A DNA stretch of 64,000 bases from Streptomyces sp. NBC_01288 (lineage in GTDB: Bacteria > Actinomycetota > Actinomycetes > Streptomycetales > Streptomycetaceae), in NCBI RefSeq assembly GCF_035982055.1, contig NZ_CP108427.1:4402001-4466000 (forward strand). The letters are read 5' to 3'. The translations under genes were made by a program, and so were the position numbers. Position 1 is the first letter of the stretch. Every line of letters starts with the position of its first letter. Under the pieces are notes generated by a model that worked only from the letters and a program-made list of their open reading frames with translations, was not told the origin of the DNA and did no database searches. Of the stretch, positions 15,497-47,695 are shown piece by piece.

Positions 15497-16325
15497 GGTG
15501 CTCGTAACCCTCCATCACGTCGCTGATCAGAGCGGCGGATTCGCGGGCTGACAGGATGTCCGCCCTGAGCACATCATAGGCCTGGCTGTGCCTCGCGAAG
15601 ACGGCCGGATCGTCGCTGAAATGGCCACGATCCAGCGACTCCGAGTACACCCAGCGGTGCCCATCAGGCAGTTCGATCAGCGACATCGACACGTTGGGGC
15701 GCAGAAGTTCGGGGTAACCCGCTGGAGCCACCTGGATACGGATGTTGGGGCGTCGACCGACACTCAGCAGGTGCTCGCACTGCTTCCGCATGACCTCCGC
15801 GCCTCCCACCGTGTTGCGCAGACAACTCTCGTCCAGGATGGCGACGTACAACGGGCCGTCCTCGGCGAGGAAGCGCGGTTGGCGGCTCAGCCTGGCCCGA
15901 ACACGCTCCTCCACCTCCTCACCGCTCGCGATCCGGGAGAACAGGGCGTGCGCGTAAGCCGGCGTCTGCAACAGCCCTGGCATGACGCGCTCTTGATACG
16001 CCCGCAGCGCGACAGCTTGCGCATCCATCTCAGCTCGCCGCTCGAACCAATCGGGGTGCTGCACCTCGGGATACCAGTCGATCTGGCGCCACATCCGCAG
16101 CAACGCCCCACCCGTGTGCAGGATTTCGTCACACGTCTTCGCGAACGACTCCTGCGGAACCCGTGTGCCCGCCTCGATCTTGGCCACATGCGAACGGTCG
16201 CAGTGAAGCTGCCGGGCCAAAGCCTCCTGCGTCAGCAACTCGGTCTCGCGATAGAACCGGAGTAAGTCGCCGAACAGCACCGCGTTACTGACCCCGCCCG
16301 TGGCCTCCGCGTTGCGATAGGTCAC
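15381..16325 (-). CDS. XRE-type HTH regulator with DUF5753 domain
   Basis: 314 residues from GTG 16325. The HTH (LTQEALARQLHCDRSHVAKIEAGTRVPQESFAKTCDEIL) covers about residues 30-70; the DUF5753 domain follows with RAYQERVMPGLLQTPAYAHALF, SRQPRFLAEDGPLYVAILDESCL and SVGRRPNIRIQVAP. The last 40 residues, Arg/Gln-rich, lie inside the downstream DUF397 gene and look like read-through rather than domain. Codon 21 (16263-16265) is TTA, so translation should depend on bldA. With the two DUF397 genes it forms the standard regulator/DUF397 module of streptomycetes. Confidence 0.9.
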   Translation of the reverse strand: MTYRNAEATGGVSNAVLFGDLLRFYRETELLTQEALARQLHCDRSHVAKIEAGTRVPQESFAKTCDEILHTGGALLRMWRQIDWYPEVQHPDWFERRAEMDAQAVALRAYQERVMPGLLQTPAYAHALFSRIASGEEVEERVRARLSRQPRFLAEDGPLYVAILDESCLRNTVGGAEVMRKQCEHLLSVGRRPNIRIQVAPAGYPELLRPNVSMSLIELPDGHRWVYSESLDRGHFSDDPAVFARHSQAYDVLRADILSARESAALISDVMEGYEHHGQAPVRRGDLGQEQLQRRERRRLRGNRLRFPRRGAGA

Positions 16326-16441
16326 CGAACCCGCCCCCCTCCGTGGCAATAGCCCAATGGCACGCGCCAAGCATTGATACGCACCGTTCCCCTGGGCGAC
16401 TCTCAATACACCCAGAGTGATGAAGTGGCCCCGGAGTGAAC

Positions 16442-17071
16442 ATGGTTGAGCCGATCGCGAACCAGATCGAACAAGGAACGCTCGTCTACGACATCAGTAC
16501 GAACAAGGTGGGTGAATACCGAGGCGAGGCAGGCCCCTACGCGATGCTGCGCCCACTCGGCGGCGGCCGCGAATGGGAGGCCGCCCCGGAAGCCGTACGC
16601 CCGGCAACACCCCAGGAACGGCTGATCGCGAGCGTAAAGGCGGCCAACTCCCGCTCCTGGGTGGGAAATTCCGTCCCCTACGACATCACGACACCCCCCT
16701 CCCCCATCCCCGACTGCCAGGCCTGCACCGACCTCGCCGCCCTCCGCCACGAAGCCCGCGTCCGCAACGACGGCACCGCCGAGACCGACGCGAACGTCCT
16801 GCTCCGCCGGCACCAGCACCGCGACCACGAGATCCAGCACCGGCGAGTCTTCCGCTTCGTGCCGTACGCGATCGTCCAAGACCCCACCGCGGAACCGGAG
16901 TACGAAGCCCGCTGTGTCTCCGGCGACGAGTCCGACTGCGACGCCACGTCCGGCCCCTACGGCAACCCGGCCGACGTAGAGGAATGGCAACGCAAGCACA
17001 CGCAGGAAACCCGGCACACCCGCTACCGCCGAAGCTTCGCGGACTACGCGGTACTGGAGCCGCAGGGGTAG
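16442..17071 (+). CDS. Composite orphan protein (small conserved unit, CxxC unit and DUF7848-like unit)
   Basis: 209 residues from ATG 16442, with GGAG five bases before it (GTG 16436 is an alternative). Three parts can be seen: residues 1-70, a small beta-rich unit (GTLVYDISTNKVGEYRGEAGPYAMLRPLGGGREWE...); 80-130, with PDCQACTDLAALRHEARVR and ETDANVLLRRHQHRDH; and 135-209, RVFRFVPYAIVQD...RCVSGDESDCDATS...RHTRYRRSFADYAVLEP, resembling DUF7848. From memory these occur as separate small genes near DUF397/XRE loci in Streptomyces, so this looks like a fusion. Function unknown. Confidence 0.72.
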   Translation: MVEPIANQIEQGTLVYDISTNKVGEYRGEAGPYAMLRPLGGGREWEAAPEAVRPATPQERLIASVKAANSRSWVGNSVPYDITTPPSPIPDCQACTDLAALRHEARVRNDGTAETDANVLLRRHQHRDHEIQHRRVFRFVPYAIVQDPTAEPEYEARCVSGDESDCDATSGPYGNPADVEEWQRKHTQETRHTRYRRSFADYAVLEPQG

Positions 17072-17446
17072 GGGTGAGCCCCTGTTGATATGTGGCCGTT
17101 GGGCCACTCGCTTCTCAGCCAGTGTCGTGCTTCCACGGCCCGAGTAAAGGGCGCTCCCTACGGTCGCGTCGGCTACGCCGATTCCGCTCCGCTCCACCCT
17201 TGACTCGACCCGCTCCAGCCCGTTTCAGAAGCGAGCGAGCGGCCCGGAGGAACGGGTGGCCAAGGTGGGGAGACCCATACCTGTACTGCGTCGCGAGCCG
17301 GTGCGAGGGGACGCGTTCGCGTCTCGCCAGCACGCCGGGTGGGCTTAGCGACTGTCCGCCGGTGGGGTGGAGGGTGCATGAGGGCGTGCCGCGGTCTGAC
17401 CCGCACGGCGCCTCGGCTTGAGCGGCCGACCCCGGGTAGGTAGGTG

Positions 17447-17514
17447 CTGGAAGCCGGGGGTAAATCTAACCACCATCATGACACTTTACTGGTTAGAAAA
17501 GAGCACAGGCTGCG
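17447..17514 (+). repeat. TCTAACC/GGTTAGA palindromic element, copy A
   Basis: Begins CTGGAAGCCGGGGGTAAATC; half-sites CTAACC and GGTTAG are 19 bases apart. The right flank is less well kept than in copy B. The same element recurs at 17726, 43864 and 47463. Confidence 0.75.
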
Positions 17515-17725
17515 GAGGTGTGGGTGGGAGGCGGGAGGCGAAGAACACGGTGCCGTAGCGCCGGGGCAGCTGCCGCACCGACAGCCGTTACCGACCGGGC
17601 CCGCGCGGCGATCCTCCGCCCCTTGGCCGCTTGCGCAGTAAGTCCCCACCGGCCGACAGTCGCTGAGCCGACCCGGCGTGCAGGCGAGATGCCGACGCGT
17701 CACCCTCGCCTCACCCCTGGCCTCT

Positions 17726-17794
17726 CTGGAGGCTGGGGTTATTTCTAACCGGTCAATGGTTGTTACGGTGGTTAGATTTACCCCCGGCTTCCAG
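17726..17794 (-). repeat. TCTAACC/GGTTAGA palindromic element, copy B
   Basis: The best-preserved copy: the 25-base arms are imperfect reverse complements, running from CTGGAGGCTGGGG to CCCCCGGCTTCCAG, with CTAACC and GGTTAG 19 bases apart. On the minus strand TTGACC abuts GGTTAGAAA, so a -35 box or operator role is possible. Confidence 0.78.
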
Positions 17795-18109
17795 CAACTA
17801 CCCCCCCCAGGGTTGGCCGCTGAGCCAGCCCGGCGTGCTGGCGAGACGCGAGCGCGCCCCTTCGCACCGGCCGGCAACACGGTTCAGGCAGGGGGGTCCC
17901 TACCTGGCCACCCGTTCCTCCGGGCCGCTCGCTCGCTTCTGAAACGGGCTGGAGCGGCCCTAGTCAAGGGTGGAGCGGAGCGGAATCGCCGAAGGCGACG
18001 CGACCGCAGGGAGCGCCCTTTACTCGGGCCGTGGAAGCACGACACTGGCCAAGAAGCGAGTGGCCCAACGTTCACATACCAACAGGCCAGGCATCGACAT
18101 GGCCCCGCC

Positions 18110-18850
18110 TCAGGACACGGCAAGAACGCAGAACTCGTGCCCCTCCGGATCCGTCAGGCACGTCCACGAGACATCGCCCTGGCCGAGATCGAGGTCACTT
18201 GCCCCCAGCCCCTTCAACCGCCCCACCTCCGCCGCCTTGTCGCCACCGGCATACGGCATCAGATCGAGATGGATGCGGTCCGGCACCTCCTTCGCGCCAG
18301 GCACGCGGAGGAACTCCAGATACGGCCCGACCCCCTCGGCGGAGCGCAACGACGCCTGATCGTCGGAGACTTCAAGGACGGCCCAGTCCATCGCCTCGCC
18401 CCAGAACCCTGCCATCGCACGCGGGTCCACACAGTCGACGACGACCGCAGCGATCGGCCCGGTGTCCCGATAGGTCTCCCGAGGCTCCAGCACGCAGAAC
18501 TCGTTGCCCTCAGGGTCCGCGAGGACGGTCCAAGGGACATCGCCCTGGCCCACGTCGACGGGCGTCGCGCCGAAAGACCGTAGACGCGTGACCAACTCCG
18601 CCTGGTGGGCCGTAGAGGTAGTCGCGAGATCGAGGTGCAGACGGTTCTTCGTCGGCGTCTTGGATTCCGGGACGGGGATGATGTCGATGCCGAGACCGAC
18701 CGGCTCGGGCCAGACGAGGCCGCCGCCCGGGCCGACATACGTGGTCACGCCAGGGCTGAAGACGCTCCAGCCGAGCGCCTCCGCCCAGAACTGACCGACC
18801 GCCAAGCCGTCAACAGCCTTGATGTTCACCTGAACGGGTCGCAGCGCCAT
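18110..18850 (-). CDS. Two-domain VOC (glyoxalase/bleomycin-resistance-like) protein
   Basis: 246 residues from ATG 18850. Two VOC repeats can be read: residues 5-120 (VQVNIKAVDGLAVGQFWAEALGW... HLDLAT... DPEGNEFCVLEP) and 125-246 (AVVVDCVDPRAMAGFWGEAMDW... IHLDLMPYAGG... DPEGHEFCVLAVS). The H...E metal-ligand pattern (HLDL, EFCVL) occurs in both, so a metal site is possible. Members include dioxygenases, glyoxalases and antibiotic-binding proteins; the substrate is unknown. Divergent from the TetR gene at 19039. Confidence 0.85.
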   Translation of the reverse strand: MALRPVQVNIKAVDGLAVGQFWAEALGWSVFSPGVTTYVGPGGGLVWPEPVGLGIDIIPVPESKTPTKNRLHLDLATTSTAHQAELVTRLRSFGATPVDVGQGDVPWTVLADPEGNEFCVLEPRETYRDTGPIAAVVVDCVDPRAMAGFWGEAMDWAVLEVSDDQASLRSAEGVGPYLEFLRVPGAKEVPDRIHLDLMPYAGGDKAAEVGRLKGLGASDLDLGQGDVSWTCLTDPEGHEFCVLAVS

Positions 18851-18992
18851 GCCGCCGATCCTATGCACCACCCAGACTCAGCCCACCGGACCCACGGCCA
18901 TCCGTATCCCCCGAAACGGACGGACGCGGGCCCGGCTACCACCAAGTCTGGACCGCCGAATAGCCAGACCGGAAGGGGATTCCAGAAATCTG

Positions 18993-19013
18993 CTCTAGAA
19001 ATTCACTCTAGAA
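18993..19013. promoter_or_regulatory. CTCTAGAA direct repeat before tetR
   Basis: CTCTAGAA occurs twice, 13 bases apart, 26 bases before the TetR start at 19039; each contains the palindrome TCTAGA. Likely autoregulatory operator and part of the promoter. Confidence 0.5.
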
Positions 19014-19038
19014 CCGGCTTCCCAATACGCTGTCCCGC

Positions 19039-19647
19039 ATGAGCCCCAAGCAACACCGCGGCGAGGTCACCGCAGACCTGCTCCTCGACGCCGCGCTACG
19101 CCTGTTCGCCGAGCAGGGCGAACAGGGTCTTACCGTCAACGCCGTGACCAAGGCCAGCGGTGTCAGCCTCGGCAGCCTGTACCACCACTTCGGCAGCCTG
19201 GACGGCCTGTTCGACGCGCTGACGGAGCGCTGGCTGAGCCGGTTGCTGGGCGAGTTGATCACGGCGATGCAGGCGACCCGCACGGCCAGGACCGGCATCC
19301 GCGCGATCGTACGGACGCATCTCGCCTTCGTCCGCGAACACCGGGACGCCGCCCTGCTGTTGCACTCCGCCAGAACCGACCAGCGGAACATGATCCAGGC
19401 CAGGGAGCTGCGTGACTCCCAGGAGGCCAGACTCTCGGTGTTCGCCGTCTGGGTCCAATCCCACGTGGATTCAGGTGAGTTGGCCCCACTGTCGCTGCCC
19501 CTGCTGGAGTCCCTCGTCCTGGGCCCACTGGTCGGCGTCGTCCGCCGCTGGCTCTCCGGTATCGACGACATCGAAATCGACCTCGACGAGGCCGCCCGCG
19601 TCCTCCCGGACCGCATCTGGCGCTCGGTCGCCGCGGACCCGACCTGA
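19039..19647 (+). CDS. TetR-family transcriptional regulator
   Basis: 202 residues. The HTH region reads TADLLLDAALRLFAEQGEQGLTVNAVTKASGVSLGSLYHHFGSLDGLFDALTERWL, residues about 9-65. The C-terminal domain has the common TetR_C pattern with RTHLAFVREHRDAALLLHSARTD. It is divergent from the VOC protein and 45 bases upstream of the transglutaminase-like gene, so it may control either. CTCTAGAA repeats lie just before its start. Confidence 0.9.
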   Translation: MSPKQHRGEVTADLLLDAALRLFAEQGEQGLTVNAVTKASGVSLGSLYHHFGSLDGLFDALTERWLSRLLGELITAMQATRTARTGIRAIVRTHLAFVREHRDAALLLHSARTDQRNMIQARELRDSQEARLSVFAVWVQSHVDSGELAPLSLPLLESLVLGPLVGVVRRWLSGIDDIEIDLDEAARVLPDRIWRSVAADPT

Positions 19648-47365: not shown

Positions 47366-47462
47366 CGTCGGCGGGTCCGTCCCCCAGTTGGACACCGCGC
47401 AGACCGACACTGGGCACGGTGCCGCGTTCCTGGACTCCAGCGCCCAACTGCACCACCACCCT

Positions 47463-47530
47463 CCACAAGCTGGGACATTTTCTAACCAGTCAACACGGAC
47501 GAGAGTGGTTAGATCTACCCCAGCCTCCAG
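47463..47530 (-). repeat. TCTAACC/GGTTAGA palindromic element, copy C
   Basis: On the minus strand it runs from CTGGAGGCTGGGGTAGATCT through CTAACC, 19 bases, TTGACTGGTTAGAAAATG, to CCCAGCTTGTGG. This matches copies A and B 30 kb away. It lies at the broken end of the anti-sigma remnant. Confidence 0.72.
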
Positions 47531-47695
47531 CGACCCCCACCACCCGCACTCCCTCCTCCTCGCCCACCGGCGTGATGGTGGAGCCAGCCGCACCCCCAAC
47601 TGGGCAGCTCACCCCCTCGTGGCGGCAGCCCGGCGACGGCATCGTTGATCTCGCACGGTCAAGGTCAACGACTCGCCGGAAGGAAACCGACCGCC

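Follow-up and report, generated by a model that had tools for sequence, protein, structure and literature searches.

A probable interspersed mosaic repeat of paired, inverted hairpins in the chromosome of Streptomyces sp. NBC_01288

Introduction

In the available part of the text of PMC3733652, BIMEs are described as mosaics of inverted palindromic units that are intergenic and lie mostly between convergent or tandem genes, and REPs as sequences 20-40 bp long that bear a GTAG or CGTC tag. REPINs are presented, in the portion of PMC3116915 that was available, as inverted REP doublets in which the inner part is less conserved and compensatory changes occur, and which are thought to be mobile and non-autonomous; in the GI REPIN 71 bp lie between the ends.

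We analysed a stretch of 64,000 nucleotides from Streptomyces sp. NBC_01288 (NZ_CP108427.1, positions 4,402,001 to 4,466,000), referred to here as the window. A first-pass annotation, made from the letters alone, had pointed out a gene-free block of about 1 kb built of nested inverted repeats, and had proposed that it might form a large cruciform or be a non-autonomous mobile element. We lean towards the view that the block is a member of a non-coding, non-autonomous interspersed mosaic repeat family of Streptomyces, with a layout like that of BIMEs and REPINs, which rarely spreads as DNA. No description of this family was found in the literature searched, most subscription journals lying outside the search.

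Results

The block, window positions 17091-18076, is built from two inverted arms of about 260 bp, an inner pair of palindromes that are likewise inverted, and a third copy that is partial (Table 1); the outer ends, at about 17091 and 18076, were set by cross-species conservation. The structure described in the first-pass annotation was borne out, including the order of the parts, R(-), element A, R'(+), element B, R(+). The outer arms are indeed close reverse complements, as 17089-17351 and the reverse complement of 17816-18078 are identical at 233 of 264 aligned positions, with an alignment score of 200, whereas none of 200 dinucleotide-keeping shuffles scored above 24.5. The partial copy is oriented as the right arm and shares 53 of 61 positions with the left one. 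A repeat search of the window returned the same parts as I1 (189 nt, 92% complementary), I2 (106 nt, 76% complementary), I3, which is the inner pair 17434-17517 / 17724-17807 (79% complementary), and I4, the partial copy (87%). The shuffles, together with homologues in other genomes, ruled out chance or a simple-sequence artefact. The arm proper comprises 168 model positions, or about 260-290 bp once its second module is included, and the repeat unit is made up of two large inverted branched hairpins that enclose one or two smaller inner hairpins.

Table 1. Features of the repeat block and its surroundings, in window positions
Feature	Position	Strand	Model and score
Flanking DUF7848 gene, pointing towards the element	16436..17071	+	
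Left arm, branched hairpin	17091..17259	+	R1, 159.5 bits
Left arm, inner part (second module; further copies at 17644-17704 and 17800-17907)	17260..17367	+	
Inner palindrome A, TCTAACC-N19-GGTTAGA with outer stem	17441..17521	+	
Third, partial copy of the arm's inner part	17644..17704	-	
Inner palindrome B, inverted relative to A	17720..17800	-	
Right arm, inner part	17801..17907	-	
Right arm, branched hairpin	17908..18076	-	R1, 162.4 bits
Flanking gene with two glyoxalase-like stretches, pointing towards the element	18110..18871	-	
Stand-alone inner palindrome copy, no arms	47457..47537	+	

The block sits between convergent genes whose stop codons lie at 17071 (+) and 18110 (-). The right-hand gene contains a 79% direct repeat (18123-18192 / 18489-18558), which fits its two glyoxalase-like stretches. 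As the annotation had held, no gene was found in the block itself: the three open reading frames that overlap it gave no Pfam family at E<=0.01, and since, in addition, the indels of the arms are not multiples of three, a protein-coding gene was rejected. Copies of such a repeat can yield spurious open reading frames. Of 24 flanking proteins chosen at 12 loci of the same genome (11 arm loci and the inner-only site L028), 20 were scanned; 19 had a Pfam family, and no common functional theme was seen among them. A known RNA family was likewise rejected, as a search of window 16000-19500 and eight other loci with the covariance models of Rfam 15 gave no match up to E 1.

A covariance model of the arm was built from 44 arms, those of NBC_01288 included, and in the single 10.56-Mb contig of that genome it found 21 arms at 11 loci, corresponding to 10 inverted pairs and one single arm. 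The outcome that the annotation had named as speaking against its proposal, a block present at the same locus in all relatives and with no other genomic copies, is thus not what was observed. Seven of the ten copies in one alignment were compared over their length, and these have nearly invariant blocks in common. The pair L021 (3.444 Mb; L021:4214-6573) is interrupted: a gene that matches DDE_Tnp_1 and Nterm_IS4 separates its parts, and CCTAG is present at both edges, which is likely to be the duplication made by this IS4-type insertion; at L179 of Streptomyces sp. NRRL F-525, which has the same neighbourhood, the arms are 1.7 kb apart and no such gene is predicted between them.

Used as a DNA query, the window element had matches in 14 of 61 genomes, its own included, and these were confined to Streptomyces, one of 14 genera sampled. 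The arm model at E<=1e-5 matched 21 of the 61 genus genomes (again with its own), leaving 40 without a match. A 24-base pattern occurred in at least 117 stretches, and among the 80 matches listed 79 had a Streptomyces title. The other (L182; NKPV01000143.1, 1891-2059) comes from an Armatimonadetes metagenome bin and lies on a 5-kb contig of 60% GC, for which contamination and transfer are both possible. The outer end of the element is sharp across species. Distant subfamilies preserve the inverted-pair layout, as in genome G006 with its 38 arm matches; eight aligned pairs of G006 measured 1.44-1.69 kb, each with two inner palindromes that, as judged by eye, are unlike those of the window block in sequence. 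A phage origin was rejected, there being no match in 50,697 phage records or, by pattern, in viral contigs, and so was a plasmid origin, as just four of 72,556 plasmid records, two of them inspected, had partial matches that covered <=27% of the query. In Streptomyces sp. NBC_00663, however, a linear plasmid of 133 kb carries a full-scoring arm near one end (L221; NZ_CP109028.1, record 359-692). Repeats of this kind can also interrupt assemblies, as in STR69, where a contig of 108,161 bases has an arm at either end.

Covariation was examined in the 44 arms, about five of which are, by eye, diverged or truncated beyond the first third. Over 50 named pairs, 90.7% of cells pair, and this fell to 37.7-42.8% when the partner was slid by 1-3 columns, a difference that is favoured because the window sequence served as the basis for drawing the structure. 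Double-sided changes were seen in 132 cells against 56.6 +/- 5.2 in shuffles and affected 19 pairs against 12.0 +/- 1.5, an excess that is favoured because the arms are related; the number of further pair types, 37, was no higher than in shuffles (36.0). At the level of the alignment, the arms are branched hairpins, the ability to form them being maintained by compensatory changes. The covariation could, however, stem from quasi-palindrome correction of DNA, not from selection.

The inner palindrome, searched for as TCTAACC-N(8-28)-GGTTAGA, occurs at 22 places in the NBC_01288 genome, with none for a reversed control. Fourteen of these are at arm loci and eight elsewhere, one of the latter in the window (47481-47513); two of the eight, L084 and L085, are without the flanking stem and may be due to chance. 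Because the genome has copies without arms, the inner palindrome seems to act as a unit in its own right, and its stand-alone sites extend to 8.85 Mb, beyond the central half of the chromosome. The exact pattern is present in 13 of 150 genus genomes, NBC_01288 included; in 11 of the 12 others the spacers are unlike those of NBC_01288, a similar site being found in G092 only, and slightly diverged sites occur in NRRL F-525, hokutonensis and G092. Single TCTAACC-N18-GGTTAGA sites with AT-rich spacers, again unlike those of NBC_01288, were seen in G063, G151, G017, G006, G150, G012, G158 and others, and are perhaps another conserved operator. In other lineages a different stem-loop takes the place of the inner palindrome, approximately ATTGG-NN-GATTTG..CAC with a loop of about 38 nt, which, like the matching changes on its two sides, was recognised by eye.

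The placement of the repeats was counted with genes from a simple composition-based finder. An outer predicted gene was present for 122 of 129 arms; it was directed into the arm in 84 cases, at a median distance of 37 bp from the stop codon, and away from it in 38, and 44 of the 122 arms lie <=40 bp from a stop codon. The 69 element-bearing gaps comprised 29 convergent, 31 tandem and 9 divergent, compared with 64, 213 and 108, respectively, among 385 other gaps in the same loci. The repeats are thus intergenic and favour the 3' ends of genes and convergent gaps. On a larger scale, the central half of the chromosome holds 32 of the 35 arm loci in the one-contig genomes G000, G092 and G071 (p 2e-7 if loci are independent and uniform, an assumption that shared ancestry violates). 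One-contig genomes with one or two loci were left out of this count: the two loci of G009 and the one of G064 are central, and the single locus of G007, at 15% of the length, is not. In NBC_01288, twenty parS sites place the origin region at about 5.13-5.31 Mb.

Comparison of flanks showed that the same neighbourhoods carry the element in several species and that the flanks have clearly diverged, so that movement would be rare or old. Arms at the same locus in two genomes were 69.5% alike (n=53), other between-genome pairs 67.0% (n=6542) and arms from different loci within one genome 78.2% (n=279); the two arms of one element, at 79.5% (n=29), were hardly above the last value. Paralogues were the more alike in 30 of 47 comparisons and the opposite held in 17, some arms at the same locus being 92-95% alike. 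As far as such alignments can tell, the likeness within a genome reflects either concerted evolution or a turnover of copies at preferred sites.

Sites without the element were found at some loci. At L022 the closest relative, G207, has a near-empty site, in which both flanks (91% and 84%) are 81 bp apart and enclose only a short hairpin, with ends (GTTGGGCCAC and GCGGCCCGACGG) similar to those of the element. Judged by eye from the 3'-end motif of the left gene, 10 of 20 further genomes have the two genes adjacent (<=~100 bp) with no element, and the remaining 10 have another sequence between them; repeated loss is an alternative source of these empty sites. At L031, an AraC-type gene and the element are present in NBC_01288 and NRRL F-525, and five relatives have the neighbouring gene, which we take to be LacI-type (88-94%), with neither AraC-type gene nor element within about 1.5 kb; in G207 and G228 the contig ends there. 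A whole neighbouring gene therefore differs too at this locus. At the window locus, relatives of the left gene in G009 and G013 are without an arm, and G026 has an arm after the same left gene with a different right neighbour. A break in synteny was rejected as the rule, since it applies to the window and L031 and other loci keep both neighbours across species.

No target duplication was seen at the window, in aligned copies or against empty loci, the flanks being too diverged to exclude a short one. A search for inner genes in 18 larger pairs found a gene that we take to be transposase-like between the arms of L128 (L128:255-3301) only, and neither an autonomous copy nor a transposase gene bearing matching ends was found in the loci studied. 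The gene between the arms of L151:2776-4609 is presumably acetyltransferase-like, and the arms of L074:2572-3998 flank a gene without recognised identity. Of the copies, empty-site counterparts and target duplications by which the annotation had proposed to recognise a mobile element, the first two were therefore found, the empty sites being those of L022, and the last was not. Its suggestion of a non-autonomous element agrees with the 10 inverted pairs and single arm, the sharp outer end and the L022 site that is empty in 10 of 20 relatives; it is just partly supported because neither duplication, transposase with matching ends nor movement was seen and because species whose flanks have clearly diverged have several loci in common.

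Discussion

The Streptomyces repeat looks like an undescribed mobile repeat that is unable to move by itself, mobility being what we infer from comparison of its copies. Such a unit would spread rarely, as DNA, and might be handled by an enzyme that recognises the hairpin ends. It would settle in 3' intergenic gaps, where it would do little harm and could possibly serve as a two-way transcription stop, and gene conversion or turnover would keep the copies of one genome alike.

Several of these features could also be expected of an element of the BIME kind that is useful to its host, as a transcription barrier at gene ends or as a site for topoisomerase or nucleoid proteins, with the copies organising the central chromosome. 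The central position of most arm loci in the three one-contig genomes, the preference for gene 3' ends, the positions common to several species and the compensatory changes that maintain the hairpin all argue for such a role. However, the 40 genomes of the genus without a match and the loci that differ among relatives argue against it, as does the one non-central locus of G007, and central placement is perhaps mere inheritance in a conserved core; we regard this explanation as unlikely. The arm covariation would also suit two structured non-coding RNAs whose transcription would run from the inner palindromes outwards through the arms, particularly as the mismatches, as written, comprise 63 A.C against 19 G.T cells, which corresponds to G.U on the inner-to-outer strand. 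This asymmetry shrinks to 17 against 9 when pair positions are counted (p 0.17), and mutation bias could produce the same skew. Moreover, a single window arm has the same folding energy as its shuffled versions, whichever strand is folded (z 0.08 and -0.08), Rfam gave no match and no convincing promoter was recognised by eye, which makes transcribed RNAs distinctly improbable. The poorest prospect is a classical MITE, that is, the ends of a known insertion sequence that has lost its transposase gene: inverted ends, multiple copies, the lack of a gene and empty sites are what it predicts, but a target duplication was not seen, no insertion sequence with these ends was found, and phage records had no match and plasmid records only the four partial ones.

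A more far-reaching reading is that these elements form a new twin-hairpin class, on present evidence specific to Streptomyces, whose copies mark out the central half of the linear chromosome, with arms under structural constraint and inner palindromes that turn over together in each lineage. We put this forward tentatively, and consider it doubtful. If true, joint turnover of the inner palindromes would be expected from a co-evolving, trans-acting protein that binds or mobilises the DNA. Their clustering in the central half makes it possible to test the copies as landmarks of chromosome organisation.

Among known systems, integron attC sites are palindromic and carry the core motifs RYYYAAC / GTTRRRY. 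The Streptomyces repeat is palindromic too and some copies show these motifs, but the core or inverse core motif fails in other copies and lineages, and an attC site was rejected. With MITEs it shares non-coding sequence, inverted ends and, at one locus, empty counterparts; it differs in that no target duplication or parent element was found and in the conserved branched structure of its arms. A REPIN driven by a RAYT was rejected, as Y1_Tnp (PF01797) is absent from four of eight genomes examined, all four of which have elements; the PF01797 match of NBC_01288, at 174 kb, is far from any arm. Large, structured, RAYT-free repeats at gene ends, with inner palindromes that change together in each lineage, would add a route by which palindromic DNA can persist, beside REPINs and MITEs.

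Set against the parts of the cited accounts that were available, the Streptomyces repeat resembles BIMEs (PMC3733652) in being a mosaic of inverted palindromic units, intergenic and near gene 3' ends, but its arm has 168 positions, its consensus end, GTGACCGTTGGGCC, is without the GTAG or CGTC tag of REPs and its inner palindromes change between lineages. It resembles REPINs, as that portion of PMC3116915 presents them, in the inverted pair of palindromic units (10 such pairs in NBC_01288), in compensatory changes and in the less conserved inner part, although it extends over about 1 kb, compared with the 71 bp between the ends of the GI REPIN. The repeat thus works like a REPIN or BIME yet is not assigned to either, as it has no REP tags, no consistent RAYT and units that are far longer.
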